Assembly (NCBI GenBank): GCA_900471605.1
Contig: UCEY01000006.1
Coordinates: 62,001-126,000, forward strand
Direction: 5' to 3'
Length of the DNA: 64,000 nt
DNA from: Hyphomicrobiales bacterium
GTDB taxonomy: Bacteria; Pseudomonadota; Alphaproteobacteria; Rhizobiales; Rhizobiaceae
Shown here piece after piece: positions 1 to 44,548 of the stretch. The position numbers were made by a program, and so were the translations under genes. A model generated the notes under the pieces. That model was not told the origin of the DNA. It searched no databases and saw nothing but the letters and a program-made list of their open reading frames with translations. The stretch's first letter is position 1, and each line of letters opens with the position of its first letter.

Positions 1-405
1 CCTGTCCCGCATATGAGACTGATCGCCGTTCAGAATGACTCGCATGACGCGCTCGTAGGCATCAGGGTAGTAGTCGCGAAGTGTGCGATCTGCCAAACGC
101 CGCTCGTAAGTGGTGAACAACTGAGGGAAGGCATGGGCGACCTTCGCCCATTCGCAGTCTTCCTCGTAGAAGCCCTTATCATTGCGGTAGAGTGGATGGA
201 CGACGGCATTTGCGATTTCGTCGAGTTGGAAGCCGCCATGGCTGGCGGTGGAATGCAGAATGATGCTGCCGGAGAATTGCCGTGAGACCTGCGCCATCCC
301 CCATGGTGTTGAGGCTCCTGCTTCTATCGTCGGCCGGTCCAATGCCTGAAGCTCAGTCTCATGCGCCGCTTGTTCTGCTGCCATGTCATCATGGATCTTT
401 GCCAT
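1..405 (-). CDS. DUF7007-domain protein, partial (C-terminus beyond window edge)
   Basis: The first 135 codons of a minus-strand gene are visible; the rest lies outside the window. The ATG at 405 is preceded by AAGGAG seven bases away. The protein carries a STPWG motif near residue 29, then SHGGFQL and GFYEEDCEWA, which I recognise from DUF7007 proteins of rhizobial plasmids and phages; their function is not known. It lies downstream of the ParB-like gene on the same strand, with a rho-independent terminator between them, so it probably has its own promoter or depends on read-through. The family call is from memory of the motif and is moderately sure. Confidence 0.7.
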   Translation of the reverse strand, partial: MAKIHDDMAAEQAAHETELQALDRPTIEAGASTPWGMAQVSRQFSGSIILHSTASHGGFQLDEIANAVVHPLYRNDKGFYEEDCEWAKVAHAFPQLFTTYERRLADRTLRDYYPDAYERVMRVILNGDQSHMRDR

Positions 406-430
406 GACAAACTCCTTCTGATTGCTGGAA

Positions 431-463
431 ACAAAAACGCCGCCAGCGTGAGCCAGCGGCGTT
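431..463 (-). terminator. Rho-independent terminator after the ParB-like gene
   Basis: Reading the minus strand, AACGCCGC (463 to 456) pairs perfectly with GCGGCGTT (443 to 436) around a 12-base loop, and the stem runs directly into a run of five T residues. It sits 24 bases past the ParB-like stop codon. Confidence 0.7.
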
Positions 464-486
464 AGTTCAGATCCGAACGCCTGGTG

Positions 487-2259
487 CTATTCGGCGGCGT
501 CGCGGAAAGTTTCGTCAGCCTCTTCCTCGGCTGTGGACTGATCCACGAGGTCATCACCGAGAAGCTGATCTTCGAGTGCATCGGACATGTTTTGGGTATG
601 CTCCAGTCCGCTGTCGACGCTGGCAAAACGTCCCGCCCACGACCGCACGTCCTCAATTGACGGCGCGAGCAGTGCTGCCGGATGCACCAGCTTGCCCTGA
701 GCAAAATGCTCAATCAAAGCGACACGGGTGTCCTTTACCTTGATACGAGCGGGGACAGCCGCCGCTTCCGCCGCAACCTCCAGCGCGTTGCGCGACAGGC
801 ACGAAAGGAAGTCTTCCGTCGCCATATTGGGCAGGAATTGATCGGCGCCGATAGCGTCCCCGGCAATACGGGCGATCAGGCCGCTATCGGAGCGATTGCG
901 CCGCAGAGACAGGACTTCGATCAGCACCGAGCGCGCAGCCTGCAGCAGCGTCTCGCGATCGAAGGACAGCTTGCCGTCCTCGTCGATCAGCCGGGCAGCA
1001 TGCGGCCCGCATTTCGCACGACCATAGGGATTGTCGGATGAGCCGCTGGCGACCGTGACATTCATGCCGGTGAAGGCGAGAATGAGCAAAGCCATCAGCG
1101 TGTCGTCTTCGATCGGCGCACGGGCGAGCGCCTCGTGCAGGGCGTCAGTCCGCAAGTCGCCGATCATGTCGAGACCCTTCTGGGTCACGTCGGGCCGCAC
1201 CTTCGGTTCCTCGACCTCATCTACGACGGTTTCGACGCCATCGGCATCCTTGACCAGCCTCGGCTTCTTCACCTCGGGCATGCGGTAGGCAACGGACTGG
1301 ACCGACCCGTCGCGCGCGTTGATGTACCAGCCGGTCAGGTCGCCCTTGCCCGGTTTGCCGTAGATCTGTTGCGCCTTTGCCGGTAGTTTTGCCTGGCCGT
1401 ATTCGTTGGCCTCGATGATCGAGCCTCGCTTCGGCAGATTGTTGGCCAGCCACTCCTGCTGCGCCCCGAGAAACGCCTCGACGTCAGTGGTGTAGCGGCT
1501 GTCCTCGTCGGCGGGGGCAAACAGATCCTCCACCCAGACGACACCATAGGCCTGCGCCAGATCATCACCGAAGCTCGCATGTTTGGCGAGCATCCGTGTT
1601 GTGGTGAGTGCGCGGGCGACCTCCCACCACGACACCTGTGGATCCTGTTTCTTCGGCCGGTACTTCTTCCAGACCTCGGCCTGCTCCTCCTGCCCTGCGG
1701 ATGCAATTGTGCGCAGCTGCTGCTCGTTCGGCATATCGCCACGCGCCATCTGATCAAGCATCGCGGGCAGGATGTTGGCGAGCAGCCGCAGCTTTCGGAT
1801 CTGCCGGGCAGGTAGCGCCAGCGCCATCGCGATTGACTCCTCCGTCCATCCCAATGCCACCAGCCGCTCGATCGCACGCCACTGGTCGACGGGGTTCAGC
1901 GGTTCGCGGGCGATATTCTCCGCAAAGGACTGCATGGCACCAAGATCGTCGGAAGGATCGGCCAGCAGCAGGGGAATTTCTGCGAGATCCGCGGCAATGG
2001 CTTGTGCCGCGCGACGATGTCCGAAAACGATGATGTAGCTGTTGCCGCCTTCCGGATCGAGTTTGACAATTGGTGGCTGGACGACACCGATCGCCCTTAT
2101 CGATGCGCACAGAAGCGCGTCGGACTGCGGCGAAGATTTCGACTGACGGGACCGGTCGGGATTGTCCTTCAGACTGCGCGGATCTGCTGCTATCAACTGC
2201 ATGTCAAATGACCTTTTCGGTTTCGGGCGGACGGACTGTCCTTGCCTCCTCATCTTCAT
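487..2259 (-). CDS. ParB/RepB/Spo0J-family nuclease-domain protein (large plasmid form)
   Basis: A 590-residue protein with a ParB N-terminal domain: the box GHRRAAQA lies near residue 78 and ENIAREPLNPVDQ about 45 residues later, followed by a helix-turn-helix-like stretch (WTEESIAMALALPARQIRK). True partition ParBs are about 280-350 residues, so this is the long C-terminally extended form found on rhizobial accessory replicons; no ParA neighbour is present, so a role in plasmid segregation should not be assumed. I chose the ATG at 2259, with AGGAG upstream; the frame stays open to 2361 and an internal ATG (MQLIAADP) also has a purine-rich leader. It is the first of a minus-strand group with the DUF7007 gene and probably belongs functionally with the methylase-helicase block. 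Confidence 0.8.
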   Translation of the reverse strand: MKMRRQGQSVRPKPKRSFDMQLIAADPRSLKDNPDRSRQSKSSPQSDALLCASIRAIGVVQPPIVKLDPEGGNSYIIVFGHRRAAQAIAADLAEIPLLLADPSDDLGAMQSFAENIAREPLNPVDQWRAIERLVALGWTEESIAMALALPARQIRKLRLLANILPAMLDQMARGDMPNEQQLRTIASAGQEEQAEVWKKYRPKKQDPQVSWWEVARALTTTRMLAKHASFGDDLAQAYGVVWVEDLFAPADEDSRYTTDVEAFLGAQQEWLANNLPKRGSIIEANEYGQAKLPAKAQQIYGKPGKGDLTGWYINARDGSVQSVAYRMPEVKKPRLVKDADGVETVVDEVEEPKVRPDVTQKGLDMIGDLRTDALHEALARAPIEDDTLMALLILAFTGMNVTVASGSSDNPYGRAKCGPHAARLIDEDGKLSFDRETLLQAARSVLIEVLSLRRNRSDSGLIARIAGDAIGADQFLPNMATEDFLSCLSRNALEVAAEAAAVPARIKVKDTRVALIEHFAQGKLVHPAALLAPSIEDVRSWAGRFASVDSGLEHTQNMSDALEDQLLGDDLVDQSTAEEEADETFRDAAE

Positions 2260-2524
2260 TTCGAAGACATCTCCTGGACCGCAGGAAGGACCGGCGGCTG
2301 CAATTGCGCCGGAGCAGACCTGGCTTGCGGGAGAGCGAGGCATACCTGCCTTGCGAGGCAAGCTGGCCCGGTCTCCGCGACCGGCGCGATTGAGGGAACC
2401 GTCAGCCGTTGGACCGTCCTTGCGAACCGGTTTCCATTTCCTTTTCCTCCCCCATCTTTTCCTTCCCTCCTCCCTTCCCCCGTGATGTCACGCGATTTTA
2501 AGCAATTGCTGCTGAACTCGCGTG

Positions 2525-3571
2525 ATGACAAAACCGCCGCGCAAGAAATCCCAGCCGCTGTTGCGGGAGACAGATGCTCCGATCCGATCACGGCCGCGCA
2601 AACCACGTGATCCCGCGCAGCCACAGCTGCCTTTCGATCCGATGCCCGACCTGATCGAACCCTGCCTGGCGCTGTTGAAGGCAAAGCCGCCGTCCGGACC
2701 GGACTGGATCTACGAGATCAAATGGGACGGCTATCGAGTGGCGGTCCATATCGAGCCGAATTCCGTCCGGATCATCACGCGCGGCGGTCACGATTGGACG
2801 GAGAGGTTTCCGGCGATCGCCGACGCCGCTCGCAAGCTCGGCGTCGGAACTGCCATTCTCGATGGTGAAGCCGTCGTGCTTGACAACGAGGGCCGCTCCG
2901 ATTTCGGCGCGCTGCAGCGTTCGCTCGGGGGGCGCGGTGGAAAAAAGGCGTCGGCCGAAGCTGTCCTCTACGCGTTCGACCTTTTGTATTTCGACGGTCA
3001 CGATCTGACGAACATGGAGTTGTCCGGGCGCCGTCATCTGCTCGAAGACTTGATCGGTGAGAGCGAGGGAGCAATCCGTGTCTCTCAGGAGGTGGAAGCC
3101 GATGGGCCTACTCTTCTTGCGGCCGCCTGCGAACACGGCTTTGAGGGCATCATCGCCAAGCACCGCGACAGCACGTACCGCTCCGGTCGCCTTGGCGACT
3201 GGCAAAAAATCAAATGTGTGCAGAGCGAAAGCTTTGTGATCGTCGGATATGAACCATCGACTGCCGCACGCGGGGGGATTGGCAGCCTGCTGCTCGCAGC
3301 CTACCAAGGCGACGCGTTCGTCTATGTCGGCTCGGTCGGGACGGGCTTCAAAGAGAAAGACGCGATCGAACTACGCCGCATGCTGGACGCATTGAAGACA
3401 AAGCGTCCAACGGTCGCCGTCGACAAGAAGGGTGTCGTCTTTGCCCAGCCGACCTTGATTGCCGAGATCGAATTTCGCGCCTGGACCGACGATGGCAAGC
3501 TGAGGCACGCATCCTACAAGGGATTGAGAGAAGTGCAGGACAACGCGGCGATCTACAAACTCGACGACTAG
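2525..3571 (+). CDS. Stand-alone ATP-dependent DNA ligase (LigD ligase-domain type)
   Basis: A 348-residue ATP-dependent ligase. The adenylation motif YEIKWDGYR (catalytic Lys near residue 60) is followed by LDGEAVVLD, FEGIIAKHRDSTYRSGR and a C-terminal OB-fold region ending AEIEFRAWTDDGKLRHASYKG. The phosphoesterase and polymerase domains of full LigD are absent, so this is a ligase-only paralogue of the LigD found at 41369-44032. Such enzymes seal nicks or double-strand breaks, some with Ku. Start: GTG-ATG at 2522-2527; no good ribosome site is visible, and I prefer the ATG. It is the only plus-strand gene in the plasmid block and ends in a hairpin shared with the convergent methylase-helicase gene. 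Confidence 0.88.
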   Translation: MTKPPRKKSQPLLRETDAPIRSRPRKPRDPAQPQLPFDPMPDLIEPCLALLKAKPPSGPDWIYEIKWDGYRVAVHIEPNSVRIITRGGHDWTERFPAIADAARKLGVGTAILDGEAVVLDNEGRSDFGALQRSLGGRGGKKASAEAVLYAFDLLYFDGHDLTNMELSGRRHLLEDLIGESEGAIRVSQEVEADGPTLLAAACEHGFEGIIAKHRDSTYRSGRLGDWQKIKCVQSESFVIVGYEPSTAARGGIGSLLLAAYQGDAFVYVGSVGTGFKEKDAIELRRMLDALKTKRPTVAVDKKGVVFAQPTLIAEIEFRAWTDDGKLRHASYKGLREVQDNAAIYKLDD

Positions 3572-3594
3572 CTTTCCAAGGTCTCAAAACGAAA

Positions 3595-3622
3595 GAGCGC
3601 TCGACCCTTTCGGGGAGCGCCC
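3595..3622. terminator. Hairpin between convergent genes
   Basis: GCGCT (3597-3601) pairs with AGCGC (3616-3620), with an inner CCC/GGG stem and a TTTC loop. No long T-run follows, but its position between the ligase stop and the convergent helicase stop suits a bidirectional terminator. Confidence 0.45.
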
Positions 3623-3744
3623 TTCCAACCCGGACAGCTTCAAACGCGCGGCGATTGCCACTGCAGGAAACCATCGAAACGGGTGATGACCGATAGATGT
3701 GCATCGCCCGGTCCCGTTTCAAGTGGCGGGGGATAAGCCGCTGT

Positions 3745-6700
3745 TCAAGCGGCTTCCTGTCGATCCTCCTCTGGCTCATTGGCGGCTGCCGCTAGATCCC
3801 TCTCGATCTCGTCCAGTTGGCTCAGCTTGAGTTCAAGTTCGGCTTCGAATGAGAAGCTTTCTCCCAGACGCGGTGTGTAGGATGCAAGACGACGGTTCGC
3901 ATCGGCAAGGCGATTGCGATGGTTCTCGCGTTCATGTTCGAACCCGCCAAGCGCATGCTCGAGCCTGGCGATCGCGCCGATCGGGGTGGTGGTTACTGCC
4001 AGATCGATCTCATAGTCGCCGCCCGTGCGCTGGAGCAGGGTGTCATATCGGTAGCCATCCTTACCAAACCGCTCACCCTGATAGACGAGGTCGAAGCCGC
4101 CGATCGCGGCGATAACGACTTCATTCTCCTGCTGAAGCTGAACGAGCGTCAGGATCTCCTTCATCAGCGCCCGGCCCGCGAGCTTGCGCTCATCGAAGTC
4201 AGTGCTGCAAACCTGCATCGAGAACGCATCGCCAGCGGTCGGGACCAGGCGTTCGATATCCTTGGCCAAATCCTCGATCCGGCGGGTGGAAAACTCAATA
4301 TCCCGTTCAGCATCGCGGATCTGCCGGCGGATCGCATGCTGGTCATCGATATGCGCGGCCCGCAAGCGGTCGAGGCGAGCGATCTCGGCCTCGAGCCCCG
4401 CCTTCTGCATCAGACGCTCGTCGCCAGACGCGATGGCCTTGGCCATGGCGAACTGGTTTGCCTGCCCCTCACCCATGTCCTCCAGCCGTCGAACGCTGGT
4501 GTCGCCCGAAAGAGCCGCTGCGATGAACCGGGCTTTGCGCTCGTTGTTCTGCCACATCGTGGCATCGAGGCTGCCAAGCGTTGCATAGGCGAAGACGTCG
4601 ACTTCATCATGCTGGTTGCCCTGACGGATGATCCGGCCTTCGCGTTGCTCTATTTGCGACGGCAACCAAGGGACGTCGAGGTGATGCAGGGCTTTCAGCC
4701 GCGCCTGGACATTGACGCCGGTGCCCATGGTTTCTGACGAGCCGATCAACACGCGGACCTTGCCGGCATTAAAGTCGTTGAAAAGCCGCTGCTTGGCATC
4801 CGACTTCTTGTAATCTTGCATGAAGGCGACTTCGGATGCCGGCACGCCGAGTCGGATAAGCTCGTCGCGGATCCACCTGTATGCGGAAAAACCGCGGGAC
4901 GCCTCGACACTCATCGTGCCGAGATCGGAGAAGATGAGCTGGCCGGCGCCTGGCCGGTCGTAAGACTTGCCGTCCTTACGGCGATACTCAGCCTCTCCCG
5001 TTTCCTGCCATATCCGGTAGGCGTTGGCGACCAACGCATTCAGCTTGTTGGCGGCCTCGTTCTCGATGGCTTGATCGACCAGCCGAAGATCGATGGCGGC
5101 GTGCCGCCCGTCGGTGATGACGGAGAGCAGTATGTCGTCGCCTGGCTTGGGCGGCCCATCCCGCATCTCGATCGCCTTGATCCGCGCGTCCAGCTGCCTC
5201 TGGTAGGACTTGAAAGCGGCCGTCGGCTCGGCGGTGATGATCTGGCGCTTTCCGCTAGAGATATTGGGAACCTTTACATAAGTTTTCAGATCGACCGGCA
5301 GCACGACGTCGGCGAAGGAGCGGAACATGGCGATGAGTTCTGGCACGTTCACGAACTGGCTAAAGCGCGTGACCGGCTTGTATTTGCCGGACGGCTGCAG
5401 TTCGAGTTCCGTCGATGTGTCGCCGAAGGTCGAGGCCCATGCGTCGAACTCGTGCAGACCACGTTCCGACAATGCTGCCGGCTCCATCATCCGCTGCACG
5501 GAGAACATCTCGCCGAGCGTATTAGTGATCGGAGTGCCCGAAGCCAGCACCAGCGCCCTGCCCTGGTTCCTGGTTTCAATAAAGCGGGATTTGACGAACA
5601 GATCCCAGGCCCGCTGCGATCCGTTCGGATCGACACCGCGCAACGTCGACATGTTGGTGGCAAAGGACAACTTGCGGAATTCCTGCGCCTCGTCGACGAT
5701 GATCTGGTCGATGCCCAATTCGGAGATAGTGAGTAGGTCGTCCTTGCGCGTGGCGAGTGCCTCAAGCCTTTCCTTATGACCCTCCTTCATGCGCTCGATC
5801 CGCTTGCGGGACAGACGGTCGTCGCGTTCGACCTTGGTGAGCAGCTCCTCGTAAAGCTCCAATTCGTCCTGGATCATCTGCGCCTCGAATGCGGAGGGAA
5901 CCGAGATGAAGCGAAACGCCGAATGGGTGATAATGATCGCATCCCAGTTCGCTGTCGCCGCCCGCGACAGGAAGCGGTGACGCTTTTCCTTCACGAAGTT
6001 GGTCTCGTCGGCGACAAGAATGCGGGCGTTGGGATAGAGCGCCAGGAATTCGCGTGCGGCCTGCGCCAGGCAATGGCCGGGCACGACCAGCATTGCCTTG
6101 TTGATCAGGCCGAGGCGGCGCTGCTCCATGATGGCGGCCGCCATGGTCAGCGTCTTGCCGGCACCGACGGCGTGCGCGAGATAGGTGGCACCCGCCGAAA
6201 TGATCCGCCAGATGCCGCGCTTCTGATGACCGTACAAAGAAAAGGCGCCTGAGGCGCCGGGAAGCTGGAGATGATCGCCGTTGAAGGAACGCGGCGCGAT
6301 GTTGTTGAAGGTGTCGTTATAGACGCGCGCCAGCCGATCGGTTCGATCTGCATCCGACCAGATCCATGCTTGGAATGCCGCCTTGATCTTGGCGAGCTTT
6401 TCCTTGGCCGCTTCCGTCTCCACCGTATTCAGCACCCGACGCTCGGTCTCGCCGTCGCGGATCGTGTCGAAGATCTGCGGCACGGAGGAATTGAGCGCAT
6501 CCGAGAGCAGTTGGCCGGCATGGCGGCGGTGGGTGCCCCACTCCGTGGTGCCAGCTGCCGACCATTCGAGTTGACGGGCATTGACCGTCCATGTCGCCAG
6601 CTCCGGCAGATGGTGTATAGAGATCTCGGCATCCATAGTCTGTTTCACGAAGGCGACGACGTCATCGGCCGGGATCCACGGCGCACCAAGCCGAGCGGTG

Positions 6701-8826
6701 ATGTCTGAGGGTCGAAGATCGGCAGGCTGCACACGCTCAAGAGCTGCCACGTTTCGGGCGAAGGCCGGATCGAGCCCGGCTGCAGCGCGAGCAACCGTGA
6801 GCTTTGATCGCACGGCGCCCGACAGATAGGCGTCAGCCACCTGCCAGGACCCGTCTGACGGATCTCGGAAGATCGCATCGCCCAGCTCGGCGAGCACATC
6901 AGCGACATCACGATGCAGCAGTTCGGCGATATGATCGGGATCGACGTGGCCGCGCTCGTTCAAGACGACAGCAAGCGCGTCGAGGGCCGAAGTGATGACG
7001 GGTGCCGGTGGCGGTGCGATGACCCGTTCAGTAAAGATCGGCCCGGGTCTGGCCGTGTTGGTCTCCAGATCATAGTCTTCGATGGAGGCCACCAGCCAGC
7101 AATCGGGGTCATCGAGGAATGGCGAGATGTTTGGCCGACGATGGACCTCCCTGATCTCACCCGTGTCCGGATCCTCCGATGTCGAGACGGAGGTAAAGTT
7201 GATCGGACCAAATTCGCGCACGAAGCTCGACCAGGCGATGCGCAGCGACACCTGCGCTTGTCTCCACGGCTGATCGCGCTCCTGCAGCTTGAGAATGAGC
7301 CGGACGGCATCACGGATCGGAATGAGCTTTCGGATGATCAGCGCGTGCTTGGCGAAGATGCCGTCAGCGCTGCGGCCCTTCCTGACTTCGACCGGAACAG
7401 CGATCCCATCCAATACCTGCATCAAGGCCGTGCCCTTGCCGATAAAATAGCTTCCCTCGCGCACCTTGGGATCGTCTGGACGCTCTGCCATCGCATCGGC
7501 GACTTCGTCCTCAAGGGCGAAGTCGATTGTGGAGGTCTCACCGTCATAGATGTCAGCTGGTAGCTGACCGATCGCGGCGTTCAGGCTCGTTTCGAGATCA
7601 CCACTGATCGGGATGCAGGTATAGGTCTCGCCAAACGGTCCCGAGGTGACGGCATGGCGGCCCAGCACCATGTCGGGATGATCGGCGAACCACCTGTTGA
7701 TACGGACGCTGCCGCCCTCACCTTCCACCGACGCATCCGCAAGATCGACCCAGCTATCGTCTCCAGCCATCTCGTCCGCATGGCGCCTTCGGAAGAAGAG
7801 GATATCAACGACGACATCGGTTCCAGCGTCAGCCCGAAAACTTCCCTCTGGCAGGCGGATTGCTCCGACAAGATCGGCCAGGCTGGCGATGTGCTCGCGG
7901 GCGCGGCTGTCAGCCTTGTCCATGGTGCCGGACGAGGTGACGAAAGCGGCAAGCCCGCCGGGCTTCAGCCTATCGATCGACTTGGCGATGAAATAGTCAT
8001 GCAGCCGTAAACCGAATGACCGGAAAGCCGGGTCGCTTTTCACCGTGCGGTCGGAAAACGGCGGATTGCCGATCGCCAGATCGAAATGGGCTGGCAGATC
8101 CGTCCGGGCGAAATCACCTGTGATGATTCTGGCCCGCGGTTGTAGCAGTCGGACGATGCGTGCTGTGACGGGATCGAGCTCGACGCCGGTGACGTGGCTG
8201 ACCTTGGAGAGCGCATCCTGCATCAGCGCCGGAAACATCCCCGTGCCAATCCCCGGCTCCAGGATCCGTCCACCCTTGAAGCCCATCCGGATCAAGCCCG
8301 CCCAGATGGACCGAACGATAAACTCGGGTGTGAAGTGTGCATATTGCGTGCAGCGCGCCAGCGACGCGTAATCACCTGGCGCCACAGCGCTTTCGAGATT
8401 GCCAGCGAGCTCTTCCCAGCCTTTGCGAAACGCTTCTTCGCCCGGCCGCCGGAATATGCCGTTGGCCAGATCCGAAGCGCCGAAGCCGGTGAACTTGATC
8501 AGCCTGGCCTGCTGGTCAGGTCGCGCCGGCAATCCGTGACGCTCGATCTCGTTCGCCAGCATGATGGCGGCGATATTTTCCCTCGCACGGTCGCGCCACG
8601 ATTTTGCGAGACCGCGAGAACCCTGCAACCGAAAATCCACCTTCGCTCGCATCTGCGCTTTGGGCTTAGGTTCTTTGCGAACAGGTGCGGCCAGCGCCGG
8701 CGTCGACGGCGGCGGGTCAAGATCGGCCCCGAACTCTGCTGCGAAACCGGGCATACCGAGATCGAAACCGGAAGAAAGAGCCGTATTGCCGAACAGGTCG
8801 ATGGTGAAAGGATCGTCATGCGCCAT
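3745..8826 (-). CDS. N-6 DNA methylase / DEAD-type helicase fusion (DarB / strawberry-notch-like)
   Basis: A 1693-residue protein. Near residue 192 is an AdoMet-binding motif (EPGIGTGMFP) and near 254 the N6-adenine methylase catalytic motif NPPF. The second half is a superfamily-2 helicase: Walker A GAGKT near residue 885, DEAQ box near 1045, SGTPITNT (motif III) and QREGRIIRQGNQ (motif VI) near 1395, followed by a C-terminal segment rich in charged helices. This methylase-helicase fusion is the architecture of phage P1 DarB, which is co-packaged to protect incoming DNA from restriction, and is frequent on rhizobial plasmids and integrative elements. Start at ATG 8826 (MAHDDPF) with AGGAG seven bases upstream. 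It probably acts with the flanking DUF1419, TOPRIM and ParB-like proteins on mobile DNA; that role is inference. Confidence 0.85.
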   Translation of the reverse strand: MAHDDPFTIDLFGNTALSSGFDLGMPGFAAEFGADLDPPPSTPALAAPVRKEPKPKAQMRAKVDFRLQGSRGLAKSWRDRARENIAAIMLANEIERHGLPARPDQQARLIKFTGFGASDLANGIFRRPGEEAFRKGWEELAGNLESAVAPGDYASLARCTQYAHFTPEFIVRSIWAGLIRMGFKGGRILEPGIGTGMFPALMQDALSKVSHVTGVELDPVTARIVRLLQPRARIITGDFARTDLPAHFDLAIGNPPFSDRTVKSDPAFRSFGLRLHDYFIAKSIDRLKPGGLAAFVTSSGTMDKADSRAREHIASLADLVGAIRLPEGSFRADAGTDVVVDILFFRRRHADEMAGDDSWVDLADASVEGEGGSVRINRWFADHPDMVLGRHAVTSGPFGETYTCIPISGDLETSLNAAIGQLPADIYDGETSTIDFALEDEVADAMAERPDDPKVREGSYFIGKGTALMQVLDGIAVPVEVRKGRSADGIFAKHALIIRKLIPIRDAVRLILKLQERDQPWRQAQVSLRIAWSSFVREFGPINFTSVSTSEDPDTGEIREVHRRPNISPFLDDPDCWLVASIEDYDLETNTARPGPIFTERVIAPPPAPVITSALDALAVVLNERGHVDPDHIAELLHRDVADVLAELGDAIFRDPSDGSWQVADAYLSGAVRSKLTVARAAAGLDPAFARNVAALERVQPADLRPSDITARLGAPWIPADDVVAFVKQTMDAEISIHHLPELATWTVNARQLEWSAAGTTEWGTHRRHAGQLLSDALNSSVPQIFDTIRDGETERRVLNTVETEAAKEKLAKIKAAFQAWIWSDADRTDRLARVYNDTFNNIAPRSFNGDHLQLPGASGAFSLYGHQKRGIWRIISAGATYLAHAVGAGKTLTMAAAIMEQRRLGLINKAMLVVPGHCLAQAAREFLALYPNARILVADETNFVKEKRHRFLSRAATANWDAIIITHSAFRFISVPSAFEAQMIQDELELYEELLTKVERDDRLSRKRIERMKEGHKERLEALATRKDDLLTISELGIDQIIVDEAQEFRKLSFATNMSTLRGVDPNGSQRAWDLFVKSRFIETRNQGRALVLASGTPITNTLGEMFSVQRMMEPAALSERGLHEFDAWASTFGDTSTELELQPSGKYKPVTRFSQFVNVPELIAMFRSFADVVLPVDLKTYVKVPNISSGKRQIITAEPTAAFKSYQRQLDARIKAIEMRDGPPKPGDDILLSVITDGRHAAIDLRLVDQAIENEAANKLNALVANAYRIWQETGEAEYRRKDGKSYDRPGAGQLIFSDLGTMSVEASRGFSAYRWIRDELIRLGVPASEVAFMQDYKKSDAKQRLFNDFNAGKVRVLIGSSETMGTGVNVQARLKALHHLDVPWLPSQIEQREGRIIRQGNQHDEVDVFAYATLGSLDATMWQNNERKARFIAAALSGDTSVRRLEDMGEGQANQFAMAKAIASGDERLMQKAGLEAEIARLDRLRAAHIDDQHAIRRQIRDAERDIEFSTRRIEDLAKDIERLVPTAGDAFSMQVCSTDFDERKLAGRALMKEILTLVQLQQENEVVIAAIGGFDLVYQGERFGKDGYRYDTLLQRTGGDYEIDLAVTTTPIGAIARLEHALGGFEHERENHRNRLADANRRLASYTPRLGESFSFEAELELKLSQLDEIERDLAAAANEPEEDRQEAA

Positions 8827-8924
8827 TGGAAAACTCCTGTGAGTGGGCGCGCCGAGGCACACTCGCAGGCGGTGCGGGTGTTGCCAGGACGCGGATGATG
8901 GAGGTTTTGAAGTGAAGGCTGCCG

Positions 8925-9542
8925 TCAGGCAGCGATGGTTTCCGGGAAATGACGGAATTGTACCGGCAGCTTCGCGGCGATCTCCTCGTCCGTCAGATCG
9001 TCGAGCAGCTTCCAGATCTTGCCCTGAGTGGCGGGATAGTTGAGCACGATCTGGCGATTACGCAGATCGGCTGGAAAGCGGGCATCGGCATAGCCGCGAA
9101 AATCCGGACCGGTCGCGCTCCAGATATGGTCGCGCTTTTCTTGGTCGCTCATGGCGCGGACCGGCCGGGATTCACGGGCGATGATTTCGGCGCGCATCCG
9201 GTCGGGCGACTGACGATCGCCCAGGTCGCAATAGCCGTGAAACCAGCTAGACCGATCATCGATCGTCAGCGCAAAGAACATGCTGGTGACGCTGGCGGCC
9301 AGAAACTCCCGCATGGCGAACATGTCGCCGCGGTAAAACAACGGCGGCAGGATCTCGAACATGTGGTCGTGGTCGGTTTCGGATATCTCGAACCACTCGC
9401 CGACATATCGCGTGCCATTCATCCGATCATCATCGAACGGTGCTTGGGAGTGGCGATTGAACAGGGCGTACATTTCGTGACGGCTGGCCACACCTTCGAA
9501 CACTTTGCGATGTGCTGGACGGATTGCTGGGGAAACGGACAT
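8925..9542 (-). CDS. DUF1419-domain protein
   Basis: A 205-residue protein of the DUF1419 family, which I know from rhizobial plasmids next to methylase-helicase genes; function unknown. The central segment ISETDHDHMFEILPPLF, then FFALTIDD and RSSWFHGYCDLGD, are the recognisable parts. The frame is open 52 codons further upstream, but the ATG at 9542 (MSVSPAIRP) has an AAGGAG six bases before it and is the better start. No signal peptide or membrane segment is seen. It lies 98 bases upstream of the methylase-helicase start and on the same strand, so co-transcription is likely. Confidence 0.75.
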   Translation of the reverse strand: MSVSPAIRPAHRKVFEGVASRHEMYALFNRHSQAPFDDDRMNGTRYVGEWFEISETDHDHMFEILPPLFYRGDMFAMREFLAASVTSMFFALTIDDRSSWFHGYCDLGDRQSPDRMRAEIIARESRPVRAMSDQEKRDHIWSATGPDFRGYADARFPADLRNRQIVLNYPATQGKIWKLLDDLTDEEIAAKLPVQFRHFPETIAA

Positions 9543-9672
9543 CTGCGGCTCCTTCGGGGTTACGACTGAAGCGAAGCCTGATCGACCTCTCTGTTCAGTC
9601 CTTTGATTGCCCCTCCTCAGCCGGCGCCTCGCGGGCAGCGGGTCAAGGGCCGCCTTCAGGCGGGCGGCAGCT

Positions 9673-10605
9673 TCACCCTTGATGCGTTGGCCGCGCATGC
9701 GGCAGCTCTCCTTTCTCCCTCCTCTCCTTCAGTTCCTCATTCCAATCCTCACTCTGCGGCCTGAGCCGCGAGAAATCGCAACCTGCGCGATCCGCCATCT
9801 GGCGCAGGCGGTCGGCGAAAACCTCGCCCTGAGCGTTATTGTCCGTCGCGGCCACAAGCCAGGCGCCCTCCCCGGAAGCCAATGTTTGTAACGCTTGGGC
9901 CGTCGTCGGCGACCAGCCGCCACCGGTGCTGACATACAGCGTGTCGGTTCGCGTCTGCTCGATCGCAGCCAGGCTGAGCGCGTCGATTGCCGCCTCCGTC
10001 ACGCAGATCCGAAGGGCCTCCACTATTCCGAACCGGAAGAGCGTCTTGGCGCCGCCCTTGGAGAACCCGCGCCAGTCCGGGCCGCGTTCCTCCCAGCCAA
10101 TGACCGTGCCAGTCTCATCGACGTGCTTCGCCCACATGGAACCGCAAGGCCCTTCCCGCAGAAGATCAATTTCGATGGCAGCAGAGATCACCTGCCATGG
10201 CAGCGCACGGCATTGCTGCAGATAGGTCCAGGTCGCCGATCCGCGCCACGGCCGTTTTCGGTGCACCCAGCGATCGGCAATCGAAGCCAGAGGCTGGCAA
10301 CGAGCAGGTTTGATCCATGCCGGTGCTGCTGGCTGAAACGAGACAAGACCTCCGACAACCACGAGGGCATCGGCAAATCCGATGTCATGCAGGTAGCCCG
10401 CGAGATCGAAAACATCACCCTTGGCGTCGGAACGGGCGTCAAACCAACCTTTGTCGTCATGAATCACGATAATGATGTCATCGTCGCGTCGGTATTTGAC
10501 CGCCCGGCGCGTGCTTTCCTTGCGATCGACAGCAAATCCTTGCCTTTCAAGAACAGCCGAGCAGCCAACCCGGTCACGCAGCTCCTCAATGTCCTTCTTT
10601 TCCAT
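9673..10605 (-). CDS. DUF3991 / TOPRIM-domain protein (plasmid primase-like)
   Basis: A 310-residue cytoplasmic protein. The N-terminal third carries a DUF3991-type region (residues about 10-90); from about 190 a TOPRIM fold is visible: CVTEAAIDALSLAAIE supplies the conserved Glu and AATDNNAQGE the acidic DxD-like site. Such proteins resemble the TOPRIM part of DnaG/relaxase-associated primases but lack a zinc finger and helicase, and their biochemical role is not established. GTG-GAC-ATG: I take the ATG at 10605 because AAGGAG lies five bases upstream. It is the upstream member of the minus-strand group leading into the DUF1419 and methylase-helicase genes. Confidence 0.78.
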   Translation of the reverse strand: MEKKDIEELRDRVGCSAVLERQGFAVDRKESTRRAVKYRRDDDIIIVIHDDKGWFDARSDAKGDVFDLAGYLHDIGFADALVVVGGLVSFQPAAPAWIKPARCQPLASIADRWVHRKRPWRGSATWTYLQQCRALPWQVISAAIEIDLLREGPCGSMWAKHVDETGTVIGWEERGPDWRGFSKGGAKTLFRFGIVEALRICVTEAAIDALSLAAIEQTRTDTLYVSTGGGWSPTTAQALQTLASGEGAWLVAATDNNAQGEVFADRLRQMADRAGCDFSRLRPQSEDWNEELKERREKGELPHARPTHQG

Positions 10606-10769
10606 GTCCACTCCTTGATTGTCCTTGCTCTTTCGGCTGCCAGCGCCAAGGCGCGAAGATGCAAGCGCGCAAGGGCGCGGTTCGCAACCTGCAGATCTGC
10701 GAGGTCTGGCTCGCGGCGAAGCCTCCCTTGCGCGTGCAACAGCGCAAGCGGCACGCGCTCCCGAAGGGG

Positions 10770-10790
10770 GATCGGCTCAATGAGCCGATC
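10770..10790. repeat. 21-bp perfect palindrome at the stop of the small ORF
   Basis: GATCGGCTCA (10770-10779), one central A, and TGAGCCGATC (10781-10790) are exact reverse complements. It overlaps the stop codon of the small ORF. It could be a terminator-like hairpin in RNA or a protein-binding palindrome in DNA. Confidence 0.6.
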
Positions 10791-10956
10791 GATAAGCGAA
10801 GGGATCGTATTCGTTGATGACGGCGTCCTCGTCGCCGTCATATTCGGCCGAAGGCATGACGCCGATATCTCCGTCGATCTCGAAGAGGGTGACCGGGACC
10901 ATCAGGGTCCGGGCAAGATCGAGTGCGTGGTTTCGTGCGAGGCTGAGATCCAACAT
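10777..10956 (-). CDS. Small acidic hypothetical protein
   Basis: A 59-residue ORF beginning MLDLSLARNHALDLART, acidic in its second half (EYDGDEDAVINEYDPFA). The ATG at 10956 is preceded by GGAG at six bases; an in-frame ATG four codons upstream lacks one. I do not recognise a domain. Position just upstream of the TOPRIM gene on the same strand and a good ribosome site are the arguments for it being real. Confidence 0.5.
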   Translation of the reverse strand: MLDLSLARNHALDLARTLMVPVTLFEIDGDIGVMPSAEYDGDEDAVINEYDPFAYRSAH

Positions 10957-11422
10957 TTGAGGCTCCATCCGGCCGCGGGGCCGATCCCCGCTCGATGGCG
11001 CCCGTTTGAACCGGGCCTGACCGCGGTCACCTCGCAGGCGTTGCTGGAGAGGTCGGAGCTCGCTCGCGAACCCCTTGCGGGTTGACCGTCCAAGGTCGGG
11101 ACTGGATCAGGGATGCCAGACAAGAGAGCGGGGTTCGGCGGCGCTTCTGGGTGGAGCCGATTTGCATGCGTCGATCGGCATAGAGCTCCATCGAGCGCAG
11201 CGAAACTGCATCTCCCTATGGCTGACTGATTCTTCGGATGAAAGGTCCGGCACACGCTCACGAGAAATTCTGCCGGCTTGAGCATGAGACGGCTCAGTGT
11301 TGATAGATTGGACGTGTACATCGCAGGCTAGGTCGGCTGGTCGCGAGATATCGGTAGGTGGCTGATGCCTATATCGTCGTTGGATCGCCCAGCCACCATT
11401 GAACTGGCAGTAAAGGTTCTGA
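10957..11422. other. Gene-free boundary between plasmid block and catabolic module
   Basis: No convincing gene on either strand. The first 140 bases contain several short GC-rich hairpins, for example GCCCG/CGGGC at 11000-11016 and AACCC/GGGTT near 11070-11083. The remainder shows nothing I can assign; it may hold decayed sequence at the junction of two accessory modules. Confidence 0.5.
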
Positions 11423-12592
11423 TCAGGCCATATCGCGCGCGAAATCAAACGAGCGGAACGGCTCTATTACGTCCAGATCGATCTCGGCGCCAAGGCCGGG
11501 CGCGGTGGGAACCGAAAATCTGCCGTTTTTGATTTGCTTTTCAATCGGGTTCTTCAAGACCTGCACGTAGTCGTTCGCGTCGGCGAAATAAGGATAGGTC
11601 TCGAGCGGCATGGCCATGGCGGATGCTACCGCCACCTGGACCGAGGCCGCGGTGCAAAGAGAGCTGGCGCAATTGTGTGGCGAAACCCGCACGTTGTAGG
11701 CTTCCGCCATGGCAGCGATCTGCACAAGTTCGAAAACTCCTCCGCAGTTGCCCACGTCGGGCATCACGATATCGACACCACCAGTCTCAAGAAGGTTTCT
11801 GAAGCCACTGCGAGTATAGACGCGCTCGCCGGCGGCGATCGGGACAGGCCAACGCCCCGCGAGGTTCTTGAGTCCGTGCACGTTAAAGGGGTCGAGCGGT
11901 TCTTCGACCCAGATAACGTCGAGCTCGGCACAAACATCCATGAAACGGATGAGCTGATCATTGTTCAGCCCGCCGGAGAGATCGAACATCAAACCGATGT
12001 CCGGACCAACTGCCTTACGCAGCGTCCTCGCGCGATCAACAGCCCGCTTGAAAGCATCATCATCGAGCTGACGTCGCTGGACGTGCCGAAGTGTCCCTCC
12101 CTTCTGTTGAGTGGCGAACGGATAGGATTTCAGGATTCGAAATCCGTCCACCAAGGGGCGTTCAGCCGCATTTGCCCAACCAGTGACATCGTCATGATTG
12201 CTGCTCCATCCGTTGGCGTAGGCTTCCAGCTCAGTCTCGAACCGTGCGCCGAAGAGTTCGTAGACCGGTACGCCAAGAGCCTTTGCCTTTATATCCCATA
12301 ACGCCTGGTCGATAGCACTGAGCGCAGCGAACACCACCGCGCCTCCACCTTTGGTCCAAAACGAATTATCGTAGATGTCGTGCCATATCTGGCGAGGGTA
12401 GGTGGCGTCGGCACCGATCACGCGTGGACACAAGTCGGTTAGCATGCCTGCGGCCGCTTTTGCCCCAATCCCATAGGCGACTGCGGCTTCGCCGTACCCG
12501 AGAAGTCCGTCCTTCGTCCTCAATTCGACGATGACGGGGTGTAGACCTGCACCTTGGATATTGAAGATGCGCATGTTTTCGATAGTCAGCAT
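11423..12592 (-). CDS. Mandelate racemase/muconate lactonizing enzyme-family protein (copy 2)
   Basis: A 389-residue enolase-superfamily enzyme. Metal ligands are visible as LMFDLSGG (Asp), WVEEPLDP (Glu) and AAGERVYT (Glu); the His-Asp catalytic dyad is in VMPDVGNCGG and SPHNCASS, and RILKSYPF carries the lysine at the end of the second barrel strand. Members abstract a proton alpha to a carboxylate, most often as sugar-acid dehydratases or racemases; the substrate cannot be read from sequence. GTG at 12601 is possible, but I choose the ATG at 12592. It is clearly related to the copy at 19035-20261 and is the last gene of the minus-strand module, 128 bases after the chemoreceptor. Confidence 0.85.
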   Translation of the reverse strand: MLTIENMRIFNIQGAGLHPVIVELRTKDGLLGYGEAAVAYGIGAKAAAGMLTDLCPRVIGADATYPRQIWHDIYDNSFWTKGGGAVVFAALSAIDQALWDIKAKALGVPVYELFGARFETELEAYANGWSSNHDDVTGWANAAERPLVDGFRILKSYPFATQQKGGTLRHVQRRQLDDDAFKRAVDRARTLRKAVGPDIGLMFDLSGGLNNDQLIRFMDVCAELDVIWVEEPLDPFNVHGLKNLAGRWPVPIAAGERVYTRSGFRNLLETGGVDIVMPDVGNCGGVFELVQIAAMAEAYNVRVSPHNCASSLCTAASVQVAVASAMAMPLETYPYFADANDYVQVLKNPIEKQIKNGRFSVPTAPGLGAEIDLDVIEPFRSFDFARDMA

Positions 12593-36957: not shown

Positions 36958-36992
36958 GAATCGCCAAAGTTGCGTTTCGTATGGAGAGTTCG

Positions 36993-37898
36993 ATGGCAGG
37001 TCAGCGCGCCCAGTGGAAAGGGTTCATAAAGTTTGGCGAGGTCTCGGCCGGGGTCGCACTCTACACCGCAGCTTCGACATCGGACCGCATCACCTTCAAC
37101 ACGATCAACAAGGCGACCGGAAACCGGGTCAACCGCGTCTTCATCGACAGCGAGACCGAAGAGCTCGTCGATAAGGAAAAGCAGACAAAGGGCTTCGAGA
37201 TCGAAAACGGCCAATACATCGTCATCGACCCTGACGAGGTCGCCGCGACAATCCCCGAAAGCAACAAGACGCTTGAGATCGAGGCGTTCATCCCGTGCTC
37301 TGATGTCGATGATGTCTACTTCGACAAGCCCTACTACCTGACCCCTGACAAACTCGGATCCGAAGCCTTCGCGGCACTGCGCGACGGGATGCGCAAGTCG
37401 AAGGTCGCGGCAATCGCCAGGACGGTGCTGTTCCGGCGGATGCGAACGGTCTTGATCCGCCCGCACGGAAAGGGCCTGATCGCCACCACCCTCAATTACG
37501 ACTACGAGGTCCGCTCGTCGAAAAAGGCATTCGAGGAGATGCCGAAGATCAAGATCGAGGGTGAGATGCTCGATCTGGCGAAGCACATCATTTCGACCAA
37601 GAAGGGTGACTTCGATCCCGCCAGCTTTGATGATCGATACGAGGCCGCGCTGGAAGAACTCGTCAAGGCCAAGATCGAGGGCAAGTCGATACCAAAGCGC
37701 AAAAAAGTCGAGGTTTCCAAGCCGAACGACCTGCTTGCCGCCCTACGGGAGAGCGCTGGCATGATGAAGGCGACCGACGAAAAACCGAAACGCACTGCGG
37801 CCAATGCCAACAAAGGCGTAGGCCGTAAGAGCGCCTCGCGCGGAGCTGCGGCGAAGTCCACCGCTTCCAAGGCGGCCTCGCAGCGCAAGTCGGCTTGA
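36993..37898 (+). CDS. ku: Ku-domain DNA end-binding protein (first copy)
   Basis: A 301-residue bacterial Ku, which dimerises around DNA ends and recruits LigD in non-homologous end joining. The core spans residues about 1-250, with QWKGFIKFGEVSAGVALY, FIDSETEELVDKEKQTKGFE and YYLTPDKLGSEAFAALRDGM. The tail from about 265 is Lys/Ala/Ser-rich, the flexible basic extension of this family. The ATG at 36993 is chosen (GGAG six bases upstream) over the one at 36981. It is followed 13 bases later by a second ku gene; rhizobia are unusual in using two different Ku proteins, possibly as a heterodimer. Confidence 0.93.
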   Translation: MAGQRAQWKGFIKFGEVSAGVALYTAASTSDRITFNTINKATGNRVNRVFIDSETEELVDKEKQTKGFEIENGQYIVIDPDEVAATIPESNKTLEIEAFIPCSDVDDVYFDKPYYLTPDKLGSEAFAALRDGMRKSKVAAIARTVLFRRMRTVLIRPHGKGLIATTLNYDYEVRSSKKAFEEMPKIKIEGEMLDLAKHIISTKKGDFDPASFDDRYEAALEELVKAKIEGKSIPKRKKVEVSKPNDLLAALRESAGMMKATDEKPKRTAANANKGVGRKSASRGAAAKSTASKAASQRKSA

Positions 37899-37911
37899 GG
37901 AGGTGGGTACC

Positions 37912-38727
37912 ATGGCACTGCGTCCATACTGGAAAGGATACCTCAAGCTCTCCCTCGTCACCTGCCCCGTGAGCATGACCCCCGCGACGTCTGAATCTGA
38001 AAAGGTCAGGTTCCACACGCTCAACAAGGACACCGGCAACCGGGTCGTTTCCCGGTATATCGATTCCGTCACGGGCAAGCCGGTGAAGGATGAAAACGAG
38101 GCAAAGGGATATGCTCGCGGCGAGAACGACTATGTCATCCTGACCGAAGACGACCTCGATAACGTCGCCCTCGATACGGTGAAGACGATCGACATCGCGA
38201 AGTTTGCGCCCGCCGACAGCATCGAGTGGGTCTACCTGGAAAAGCCGCATTACCTAATGCCCGACGATGCCGTCGGCAATGAAGCCTTTGCGGTGATCCG
38301 CGACGCGATGAAGGCGGACAAGGTCGTCGGGATTTCGAAGCTTGTCATCGGTCGTCGCGAGAAGGCGGTGGTTCTCGAACCCCGGGATGAGGGAATCGTA
38401 CTCTGGTCCCTGCGTTTCGGCGACGAAGTGCGGCCCGAAGAAAACTATTTCGAGGATATCGACGACGAGGTCGATCCTGATCTCATTCCTCTCGTCCAGA
38501 AACTGATCAAGCAGAAGACAAAGCGCTGGTCACCCGACATGGTCAGTGACCCGATCCAGGAGAGCCTCCTCAAGCTTATTGAGGAGAAGAAGAAGGCGCT
38601 CAAGCCGAAGAAGTCGACAAAGAGCAGAAAAGCGGAAGACGTCGAACCGAAGTCCAACGTGGTGAACATAATGGACGCGCTTCGCAAATCGGTTTCTGCC
38701 GAACTGAAGAGCCGGAAGGCTGGCTGA
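37912..38727 (+). CDS. ku: Ku-domain DNA end-binding protein (second copy)
   Basis: A 271-residue Ku, clearly diverged from the copy immediately upstream: RPYWKGYLKLSLVTCPVSM, YIDSVTGKPVKDENEAKGY, YLMPDDAVGNEAFAVIRDAM. The basic tail is shorter, ending in NVVNIMDALRKSVSAELKSRK, a small helical C-terminal motif seen in many bacterial Ku proteins. The ATG at 37912 has GAGGAGGTGG upstream. It is co-transcribed with the first copy. Confidence 0.93.
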   Translation: MALRPYWKGYLKLSLVTCPVSMTPATSESEKVRFHTLNKDTGNRVVSRYIDSVTGKPVKDENEAKGYARGENDYVILTEDDLDNVALDTVKTIDIAKFAPADSIEWVYLEKPHYLMPDDAVGNEAFAVIRDAMKADKVVGISKLVIGRREKAVVLEPRDEGIVLWSLRFGDEVRPEENYFEDIDDEVDPDLIPLVQKLIKQKTKRWSPDMVSDPIQESLLKLIEEKKKALKPKKSTKSRKAEDVEPKSNVVNIMDALRKSVSAELKSRKAG

Positions 38728-38799
38728 GACGATCGACGAGGCAGGCGTCATACACTGCGAACCAGCCCTTCTCTTTTCAACAACTGCCAGATGCCATCA

Positions 38800-38819
38800 C
38801 GGACGGTTCATAACGTCCG
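38800..38819 (+). terminator. Small hairpin after the ku pair
   Basis: CGGACG (38800-38805) pairs with CGTCCG (38814-38819) around an eight-base loop, 73 bases past the ku stop. No T-run, so termination is only possible. Confidence 0.35.
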
Positions 38820-38853
38820 CATGGCTAACAGCATGCTCGTACAAGGCGGTTTT

Positions 38854-38940
38854 CGTTGCATCCTTCACGAAGGCTGCCCCGGAACAAGGTGGCGGCAACC
38901 GTGTTCATCCGGGCAGAGCTCATCAAACAAGGATGCAACG
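38854..38940 (+). ncRNA. Highly structured 5' leader of the DUF2177 gene
   Basis: CGTTGCATCCTT (38854-38865) and AAGGATGCAACG (38929-38940) are a perfect 12-pair inverted repeat. Inside it, CTGCCC (38874-38879) pairs with GGGCAG (38911-38916), GAACA (38882-38886) with TGTTC (38902-38906), and GGT (38888-38890) with ACC (38898-38900), giving one long 87-nt hairpin. The 3' arm contains the AAGGA ribosome site of the gene that starts at 38942, so folding would hide it. It could be a cis-regulatory RNA or a palindromic repeat element that has landed there. Confidence 0.55.
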
Positions 38941-38941
38941 G

Positions 38942-39343
38942 ATGAAGACACTTGGTGTCGCCTACGCCGGAACGCTGATTTCATTTCTGCTCATCGATGC
39001 AATCTGGCTCGGTATCGTTGCCAAGAATTTCTATCGCGAACAACTCGGGGACATGATGCTGCCGTCACCGAATTTTGCGGTTGCTGCTGTATTCTATCTC
39101 TTCTTTGCGATCGCCATCGTGATCCTCGCGGTCCGTCCCGGTCTGGAGGCCGACTCAGTATGGACGACCGTTGGTTATGGGGCAATACTGGGGATCGCGG
39201 CCTATGGAACCTACGATATGACCAACCTCTCGACGCTGAAGAACTGGCCGGTCACGCTGACGATTGTTGATCTGGCCTGGGGTACGGTCCTGACCGCCGC
39301 TGCGAGCGCATGCGGCTACGCGGCAGCCCGTCAGTTCGGGTAG
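38942..39343 (+). CDS. DUF2177-family integral membrane protein
   Basis: A 133-residue protein with four hydrophobic segments (from about residues 4, 48, 80 and 108), beginning VAYAGTLISFLLIDAIWLGI and containing GTYDMTNLSTLKNWP, the recognisable DUF2177 stretch. Function unknown. I choose the ATG at 38942 because AAGGA lies eight bases upstream; an ATG three codons earlier lies within that ribosome site. It follows a strongly structured leader and is followed seven bases later by the metallophosphoesterase gene. Confidence 0.85.
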   Translation: MKTLGVAYAGTLISFLLIDAIWLGIVAKNFYREQLGDMMLPSPNFAVAAVFYLFFAIAIVILAVRPGLEADSVWTTVGYGAILGIAAYGTYDMTNLSTLKNWPVTLTIVDLAWGTVLTAAASACGYAAARQFG

Positions 39344-39349
39344 CAGGCG

Positions 39350-39880: not shown

Positions 39881-40018
39881 GACGATAAGCGCTTAGACGC
39901 CGACAAGATCCTCCCAGGCATCGTCACCGGTTGGGTCCAGTTCGAATGTCCTCCACCGGCTGGCGAACGATTTCTCTTCCCAGTCGTTTGACGACTCAAA
40001 CGGATGGAGACAAGAACG

Positions 40019-40975: not shown

Positions 40976-40977
40976 GG

Positions 40978-41361: not shown

Positions 41362-41368
41362 GATCGGG

Positions 41369-44032: not shown

Positions 44033-44089
44033 GATCTCGCAACTCCGCAAAAGGATACGAACGGAACCGGCCAGACCGGCTCGTTTTGC

Positions 44090-44398: not shown

Positions 44399-44432
44399 GG
44401 GTCTCTCCGTGGATATTGGTCGCCGACTACCT

Positions 44433-44457
44433 AACGTCGCCCGGGTCATGTTGTTTC
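44433..44457 (-). promoter_or_regulatory. Possible EcfG-type promoter for the ligD pair
   Basis: On the minus strand GAAAC (44457-44453), 16 bases, CGTT (44436-44433): one mismatch to GGAAC-N16-CGTT, about 35 bases before the start at 44398. Confidence 0.4.
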
Positions 44458-44528: not shown

Positions 44529-44548
44529 CCTCCGCGCTGTTGATCCGC

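Follow-up and report, generated by a model that had tools for sequence, protein, structure and literature searches.

Why would genes for a DUF7007 protein, a ParB-like protein, a methylase-helicase, a DUF1419 protein, and a Toprim protein lie side by side in rhizobial DNA? The stretch in which they were noticed, which we call the window, is 64,000 nucleotides from the 7.1-Mb genome of a Hyphomicrobiales bacterium (assembly GCA_900471605.1). It corresponds to C48:62001-126000, where C48 is contig UCEY01000006.1, and we read 126 kb of this 189,624-bp contig. An earlier note on this DNA had proposed that the five families form a functional unit for incoming or mobile DNA. We found that the block is a real, single unit and that its host replicon is a repABC, Ti-type (MOBQ) conjugative plasmid. 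The block is likely to be the leading-region establishment operon of such a plasmid, and its genes probably protect and start up incoming plasmid DNA early in mating. On balance, we also infer that anti-restriction is the operon's main job.

A Pfam profile search of the window's proteins confirmed that all five families are present on the same strand (-). The earlier note had suggested a co-occurrence analysis, and the families turned out not to be independent. An order-level genome search found DUF1419 in just 5 of 297 genomes; a family-level sample was used next. Of 394 Rhizobiaceae genomes, 93 have DUF1419; DUF7007 was found in 58 of 394 genomes drawn likewise, and 51 genomes have both (Fisher p 1.3e-30). 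Among 70 places with DUF7007, 52 have DUF1419 within 25 kb on the same contig, and strand and order agree in all 52. (The remaining 18 comprise 17 on contigs where DUF1419 has no match and one that lies 85 kb from it.)

We then surveyed gene order at one DUF1419 place per genome in 58 genomes. (The window's own genome was left out; 6 fragments of under 280 bases were dropped from the other 92 best places, and every third of the remaining 86 was skipped, which left 58.) Toprim precedes DUF1419 in 47 of these loci, and all 47 are collinear. Where these Toprim-type loci have enough contig, they have the methylase-helicase (42/44), ParB (37/38), DUF7007 (32/36), ArdC (24/27), and DUF736 (24/27), and traG plus traA were found in 18 of the 23 loci with 28 kb downstream. 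Across 63 loci, the best matches to nine block families are never on the other strand, and traC, traD, and traG are always on the strand opposite to the block; HU and thermonuclease have one strand exception each. In a further set of 80 named loci, mostly from Hyphomicrobiales, we found Toprim in 76/76, the methylase-helicase in 73/75, ParB in 55/66, and DUF7007 in 46/65, with no strand exception. The genes that flank the block are seldom shared: the mandelate racemase was found in 0/47 and 0/80 loci, and the commonest flanking gene, for an ABC ATPase, had 10 matches in 47 loci. Because the flanking genes are rarely present, the conserved order is not mere overall synteny.

Where does the block lie relative to the origin of transfer (oriT)? 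The contig carries repABC at 10.2-13.9 kb (RepA and RepB at 11.6-13.9 kb), the Ti-type relaxase TraA (2153.6 bits to the best NCBIfam family), the coupling protein TraG, and, as read by eye, genes for an N-acyl-homoserine lactone (AHL) synthase and trb-type genes. On the contig's + strand, the interval from traA to traC contains a MOBQ nic-type site, GCGACGTATAATTGCGCCCTTG. By analogy with RSF1010, we take the nick to fall before CCCT, with that 5' end leading. On that basis, the + strand would enter first, bringing traC, traD, and traG and then the block. Since the block's genes are on the - strand, their template would be the entering strand (the T-strand). This puts the block on oriT's leading side, with its transcription running toward oriT. 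We searched 24 loci, our own included, with the 15-nt core of this plasmid's own site. It matched with no mismatch in 17 loci and with two mismatches in 4, while shuffled sequences gave 4-6 mismatches, and the polarity of all 21 good matches directs the strand toward the block. The site resembles the MOBQ oriT consensus NWACCNNTAAGTGCGCCCTYNN (PMC3832669), and in Ti and opine plasmids oriT is located between traC and traA (PMC6546132).

The features of the block are collected in the table. From the head toward oriT, the order is structured element, small open reading frame (sORF) of 59 aa, Toprim, DUF1419, methylase-helicase, ParB, and DUF7007. Beyond DUF7007, the general layout continues with ArdC (where present) and DUF736, and then traG-D-C and oriT. 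The earlier note had drawn the block at positions 1 to 10,956 of the window, and both ends need adjusting: DUF7007 crosses the window's edge (the full gene is C48:61755-62405, 216 aa), and position 10956 is the start codon of the sORF, with the structured element just outside. The five families it listed do make up the block, but a LigD-like ligase gene on the opposite strand (2522-3571) had been overlooked. LigD was found in 12 of the 66 named loci with room for it, on the opposite strand every time, and because it is both in the minority and always on the opposite strand, we consider it a passenger. (Another LigD gene lies elsewhere in the window, at 36981-53583, where by eye we see two Ku genes, LigD, DinB, and imuA-imuB-dnaE2.) In the ParB-like gene, the ATG is at 2202, and the open frame extends to 2361.

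Table. Features of the block; coordinates are window positions
Feature	Position	Strand	Evidence
DUF7007 gene, N-terminal 135 codons	1..405	-	Pfam PF22653 2.6e-39
Orphan ParB-like protein	487..2202	-	Pfam ParB_N 1.8e-8; NCBIfam PRK13832 909 bits
LigD-like ATP-dependent DNA ligase	2522..3571	+	NHEJ_ligase_lig 345.5 bits
DarB-type N6-adenine methylase + SNF2 helicase, 1693 aa	3745..8826	-	Pfam, NCBIfam, PHROG
DUF1419 protein, 205 aa	8925..9542	-	Pfam PF07215 3.9e-49; 41 related copies aligned
DUF3991/Toprim primase-like protein	9673..10605	-	Pfam DUF3991 1.6e-21, Toprim_2 1e-16; motifs, alignment
59-aa sORF, operon's first gene	10777..10956	-	Similar ORF in related loci
155-position structured element, operon head	10954..11105	-	Covariance model match 133.6 bits

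The block is under purifying selection. Relative to the Pararhizobium plasmid NZ_CP119569, the ratio of nonsynonymous to synonymous substitution rates (dN/dS) is 0.04-0.16 for seven genes, namely six block genes including the sORF and the neighbour at C48:60486-61070. The ratio is 0.095 for TraA and 0.09 for the ParB-like gene as read from the ATG at 2202.

The same layout is found on NZ_CP119569, pRi1724, pTiQ15_94, pXAUT01, and pTiC58, and the unit is also on plasmids of Bradyrhizobium, Xanthobacter, and Afipia. pTiC58 has the whole unit, from the element and the sORF (ATU_RS26610) through ArdC and DUF736 and then traG-D-C. Just past the operon head, it carries ligD, imuA, and two error-prone polymerase genes (one of the Y family). 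In pTiQ15_94 the methylase-helicase region is shortened, and pTiS4 is eroded. A protein search found DUF1419 in 485 plasmid records, of which 348 are typed conjugative. On pBBta01 and pOC167B, which are typed MOBP, the unit points toward mobC and the relaxase, with repABC in between; at the expected place of ParB, pBBta01 has integrase-type genes.

What do the proteins suggest about the operon's role? The methylase-helicase combines an N6-methyltransferase (MTase) with SNF2/Helicase_C domains, and residues 65-1698 match PHROG 10089 ('DarB-like antirestriction') with 1633 bits. The DarB dyad has been described with the LPD36 motif GXGU and the adenine methylase motifs TP and NPP(F/Y) (PMC5512222). 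Our protein has GFGA (at residue 126 of the longest frame), TP, NPPF, and intact helicase motifs, with the SF2/SNF2 helicase C-terminal in the same chain as the methylase; LPD36 was judged by the GXGU motif alone. Among 107 near-full-length copies, GFG[AGS] is present in 104, TP and NPPF in all 107, and the helicase motifs in 106-107. The earlier note had compared this protein's layout to DarB of phage P1, and the domain plan and the motifs agree with that. An in-frame fusion joins DUF1419 to the methylase-helicase in Bradyrhizobium iriomotense (L169 10001-15784). (Two more in-frame joins of these families were seen in the 142 loci, at short or damaged stretches.)

In the Toprim protein, the acidic motifs are present, and the DaN- motif reads DWNE; in DxD, Asn replaces the second aspartate. 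Its relatives conserve TEAA[IV]DA (117/126), ATD (126/126), and D[WFY]N (125/126). Toprim acidic and DaN- motifs have been linked to the primases of mobile elements (PMC5512222). A profile search of the PDB with the Toprim family found no relative (best E 0.69), and the same search with DUF1419 found no credible one (best E 0.64). The predicted structure of DUF1419 is weak (predicted local distance difference test, pLDDT, of 63). The predicted structure of DUF7007 (pLDDT 86) has no match in the PDB at E <=0.001; the best VIA Z is 3.7, over 56 residues. In BFVD, the only matches with E <0.02 are two phage DUF7007 proteins and one uncharacterised protein, so no function follows from these matches. 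We found no paper on DUF1419 or DUF7007 in the open-access literature, in keeping with the earlier note's view that the block is uncharacterised in rhizobia.

Genes for anti-restriction and orphan methylases are carried on the T-strand in leading regions, one island of which includes darB (PMC11541004), and ArdC works in the recipient against HsdRMS (PMC7213743). In our unit, the candidates for an anti-defence gene are the DarB-like gene here and ArdC in most sampled relatives. In pRi1724, ArdC has the Pfam domains ArdcN and MPTase-PolyVal (a metallopeptidase). The place that ardC has in relatives is occupied here, just outside the window at C48:55518-60026, by transposase, hydrolase, SDR, and AraC genes (as read by eye), and NZ_CP119569 is annotated with the same set.

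We propose that the nicked strand would enter 5' end first, with traC, traD, and traG ahead of the operon. The entering strand would serve as the template, and the products would act early in the recipient. The DarB-type methylase-helicase might move along the plasmid DNA and methylate it, and thereby blunt restriction. In most of the sampled relatives, ArdC could coat single strands and blunt type I restriction. The Toprim protein may prime the complementary strand, and the ParB-like, DUF1419, and DUF7007 proteins may load on or process the DNA. The earlier note's idea of a unit for incoming or mobile DNA is upheld by the linkage of the families, by their place in the leading region of conjugative plasmids, and by the adjoining ardC of most sampled relatives.

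The operon also has a conserved head. Ahead of the sORF, the non-coding sequence is conserved across Rhizobiaceae and as far as Bradyrhizobium, Xanthobacter, Bosea, and Parvibaculum. It has about 70% G+C and would fold into three hairpins under a closing stem, together with a 3' hairpin that has GGAG in its outer strand, ahead of the start codon. The alignment (A5) uses 45 of 50 non-redundant upstream stretches (L113, L132, L135, L140, and L158 were left out). The model has 36 pairs in seven helices, and across 46 sequences 93.5% of cells are paired (shuffled mean 88.7). Twelve pairs have changes on both sides, with 78 such cells, and none of 500 shuffles is as high. Relatedness alone may beat shuffles, but a control that slides the pairing out of register retains the relatedness, and it leaves 39-47% paired. 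Further pair types are no more numerous than in shuffles (308/500). In a second set of 18 dissimilar copies, mostly from contexts that resemble integrative and conjugative elements (ICEs), 86.1% of cells are paired, compared with a mean of 85.3 and a maximum of 86.1 in shuffles and 36-59% in slid versions. Double-change cells number 7 in this set and at most 6 in its shuffles, but sliding by +1 gives 11. The copies are too uniform, and by themselves they give covariation no support.

With a covariance model, we found the element in 128 of the 394 Rhizobiaceae genomes, including 75 of the 93 with DUF1419 (p 1e-28), and in 3 of 189 other genomes from a class-wide sample. There are up to seven matches per genome among the matches listed, some of them on multi-megabase contigs, which are probably chromosomes. 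A search by DNA similarity alone found the element in 206 plasmid records, 172 of them conjugative. No Rfam family matches above its gathering score in window positions 1-12000, nor at a lax threshold in 10700-11300. Among the survey's Toprim-type loci, 36 of 47 hold the element, at 37 sites that are all in the T-strand-template orientation. (Identical elements of genomes G436 and G468 matched twice, so 39 rows are 37 sites.) The next gene is Toprim at 29 sites and ArdC at 8 (seven directly, one 3 kb on). In the 18 loci that bear traA, the 18 sites are 6-33 kb from the nic position, which is convincing in 16. The upstream stretches of L135, L140, and L158 have no element, and the covariance model found none in L135, L140, or pTiS4; in L158, there is one about 3.5 kb before its sORF match.

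Is the element tied to the DUF1419 operon? The best 150 sites comprise 49 before the operon, 13 inside the block, and 88 away from DUF1419. We fetched 40 of these 88, and the sORF family is directly behind the element in 36; in three others this copy is damaged or starts with GTG, and the last has none. Several of these sites are on multi-megabase contigs and are followed by an ICE-like core that includes DUF736 and, as read by eye, genes for a ParA and a replication-protein-like product. This core presumably resembles the symbiosis ICEs of Mesorhizobium. Upstream of Toprim, an ORF similar to the sORF was found in 29/47 and 62/80 loci; three of the sORF proteins have no match in Pfam or NCBIfam.

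The element could quite plausibly be an RNA leader, at slightly less than an even chance. A single-strand promoter is possible but doubtful, and another single-strand signal, such as a priming site, is rather unlikely, as is something else altogether. Wobble pairs point both ways. Read in the sense direction, all pairs of the element together include 46 G-U and 38 A-C. The closing stem has 13 A-C and 0 G-U, which leans toward the T-strand, and the 3' hairpin has 39 G-U and 20 A-C, which leans toward the transcript. Farther on, a hairpin lies over the stop of the sORF; the T-strand stretch that contains it, C48:72726-72845, is the strongest of 79 stretches (z -7.2), and a perfect inverted repeat overlaps this stop. 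The hairpin overlaps coding sequence, and no terminator-like site was found there. The gap between the sORF and Toprim (window 10607-10795) is conserved and may hold another small ORF.

We also consider a bolder proposal, which is tentative and in our view doubtful. The element and its small protein would be the alphaproteobacterial counterpart of Frpo/ssi, found on plasmids and ICE-like elements across Hyphomicrobiales. The element would fold on the entering strand and switch on the Toprim operon, ardC, or the ICE-like core genes before the second strand is made, and the operon with DUF1419 and DUF7007 would be a new counter-defence and establishment machine that the element drives.

Several observations count against the establishment-operon reading. 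Similarity to P1 DarB itself, which the earlier note had invoked, is local only, with about 30% identity over some 11-12% of the query (tblastn). In one study, cloned darB alleviated EcoKI restriction via plasmid DNA, not via the protein (PMC11109961). We did not find ardC in this genome with an ArdC protein query, in a search that had no positive control; the same query protein found ArdC in 36 of 63 survey loci (tblastn). If ardC is absent, the leading candidate for anti-restriction here would be the DarB-type enzyme. Of the 58 DUF1419 loci, 11 lack Toprim, and 7 of those 11 belong to a second lineage, in which ParB lies upstream. In 5 of the 23 loci with at least 28 kb downstream, the traG and traA pair is not there. 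Three of the 24 nic matches are at chance level (4-5 mismatches), and the position of the nick inside the motif is taken from RSF1010. Finally, a promoter scan found no linear sigma-70 promoter (-35/-10 pair) at the operon head.

Could the block instead maintain the plasmid, as a partition and replication helper that serves vertical stability rather than transfer? The ParB-like protein does match the 'plasmid partitioning protein' family PRK13832, and orphan parB genes have been noted in Ti and opine plasmids, such as Atu6103 of pTiC58 (PMC6546132). But RepA and RepB are elsewhere on the contig, no ParA was found among the block genes, and ParB was not found in 11 of the 66 named loci with room for it, so we consider this unlikely. 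The block might be a defence or exclusion system (like BREX, DISARM, or MADS) that marks the plasmid's own DNA and blocks phages or other plasmids. PADLOC reports that stretches of the MTase and the helicase resemble mad2, DrmD, and BrxH, and on pBBta01 and pOC167B there are restriction-, abortive-infection- or TIR-type genes near the block or the relaxase. These matches are limited to single domains, though; the NCBIfam scores are far under the cut-offs (DrmD 55 vs 610, MAD2 19.4 vs 720), and the other block proteins have no PADLOC match. A defence system would also leave the fixed place toward oriT unexplained, and we regard it as quite improbable.

The genes might also be plasmid backbone that is co-inherited without a joint function. 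Most of the sampled plasmids have a Ti-type transfer system, and common descent alone could keep some of the order. Yet the order persists down to 53% identity of DUF1419 and with another relaxase class, while the genes on both flanks are mostly unshared. Together with low dN/dS across the block and the fusion of DUF1419 to the methylase-helicase in L169, this makes mere hitch-hiking very improbable.

Of known systems, the leading-region anti-defence islands (PMC11541004) share with our operon a place on the leading side of oriT and the T-strand-template orientation. Those islands also carry orphan methylases, darB, and further genes against restriction, for which the DarB-like gene here and ArdC in most sampled relatives would be the counterparts. 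Genes for error-prone polymerases lie at the far edge in both: umu forms the boundary of enterobacterial islands, and pTiC58 has imuA and the polymerases. Unlike those islands, the rhizobial one is a fixed, collinear Hyphomicrobiales operon with DUF1419, DUF7007, Toprim, and ParB; it has traC-D-G between it and oriT, and a structured element and a small ORF at its head. The polyvalent proteins (PMC5512222) offer a parallel in the DarB dyad, with GXGU, TP, NPP(F/Y), and a C-terminal SWI2/SNF2 helicase, and in the company of ArdC, ParB-type, and Toprim primase-type domains, but those are joined in one giant polypeptide, whereas here there are separate genes in an operon and no virion. The leading regions of F and pED208 have Frpo1-ygeAB, Frpo2-ssb and following genes, and ssb-parB2-psiB-psiA (PMC9849209, PMC8406263). 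As in our case, repeated structured sequences precede the leading units (Frpo1 and Frpo2 in F), and a unit includes an orphan ParB. In contrast, we recognised no ssb or psi gene in the rhizobial block, and, compared by description, the rhizobial element differs from Frpo in its G+C content, its junction plus hairpin, its nearly constant small ORF, and the lack of a linear -35/-10 pair in our scan. An ArdC comparable to that of R388 (PMC7213743) belongs to the same-strand unit in sampled relatives, and the pRi1724 copy has both domains; in this genome, ardC was not found.

Some of the related loci have other features. The second DUF1419 lineage (L092, L094, L100, L105, L107, L108, and L110) has DUF736 and/or WGR downstream where room allows; no Toprim or methylase-helicase was found in these loci. 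Between Toprim and DUF1419, genes for 'mobile mystery protein' A and B lie on the opposite strand in pTiC58 (L195 22879-23933) and pTiQ15_94 (L009 8448-9502). Between the methylase-helicase and ParB, pXAUT01 has a RES-domain gene with a small partner, which is toxin-antitoxin-like (L193 13532-14393). Near the relaxase of pBBta01 (L196 14466-21789) are TIR, caspase-family, and metallophosphoesterase genes, which are likely a defence cluster. A contig filed as Erwinia oleae (L131) has a rhizobial operon head, which could reflect contamination or transfer.

Leading-region islands are a known kind, and judging from the sequences, the fixed alphaproteobacterial operon would be a new variant of them. 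Among the papers listed in our searches of the open-access literature (main texts), we found no description of the operon, the two DUF families, or the structured head with its small protein. This head may be new in itself. The informative parts, oriT, ardC, the T-strand context, and the structured element, were invisible to the earlier note. The operon places DUF1419, DUF7007, and the small protein in a testable pathway. The element lends itself to asking directly whether early expression beyond the enterobacterial plasmids is timed by single-strand promoters or by RNA leaders, and it is a marker for leading regions in alphaproteobacterial mobile elements. Since Ti, Ri, opine-catabolic, and other rhizobial plasmids share the operon, it may help decide which soil bacteria can be their recipients.

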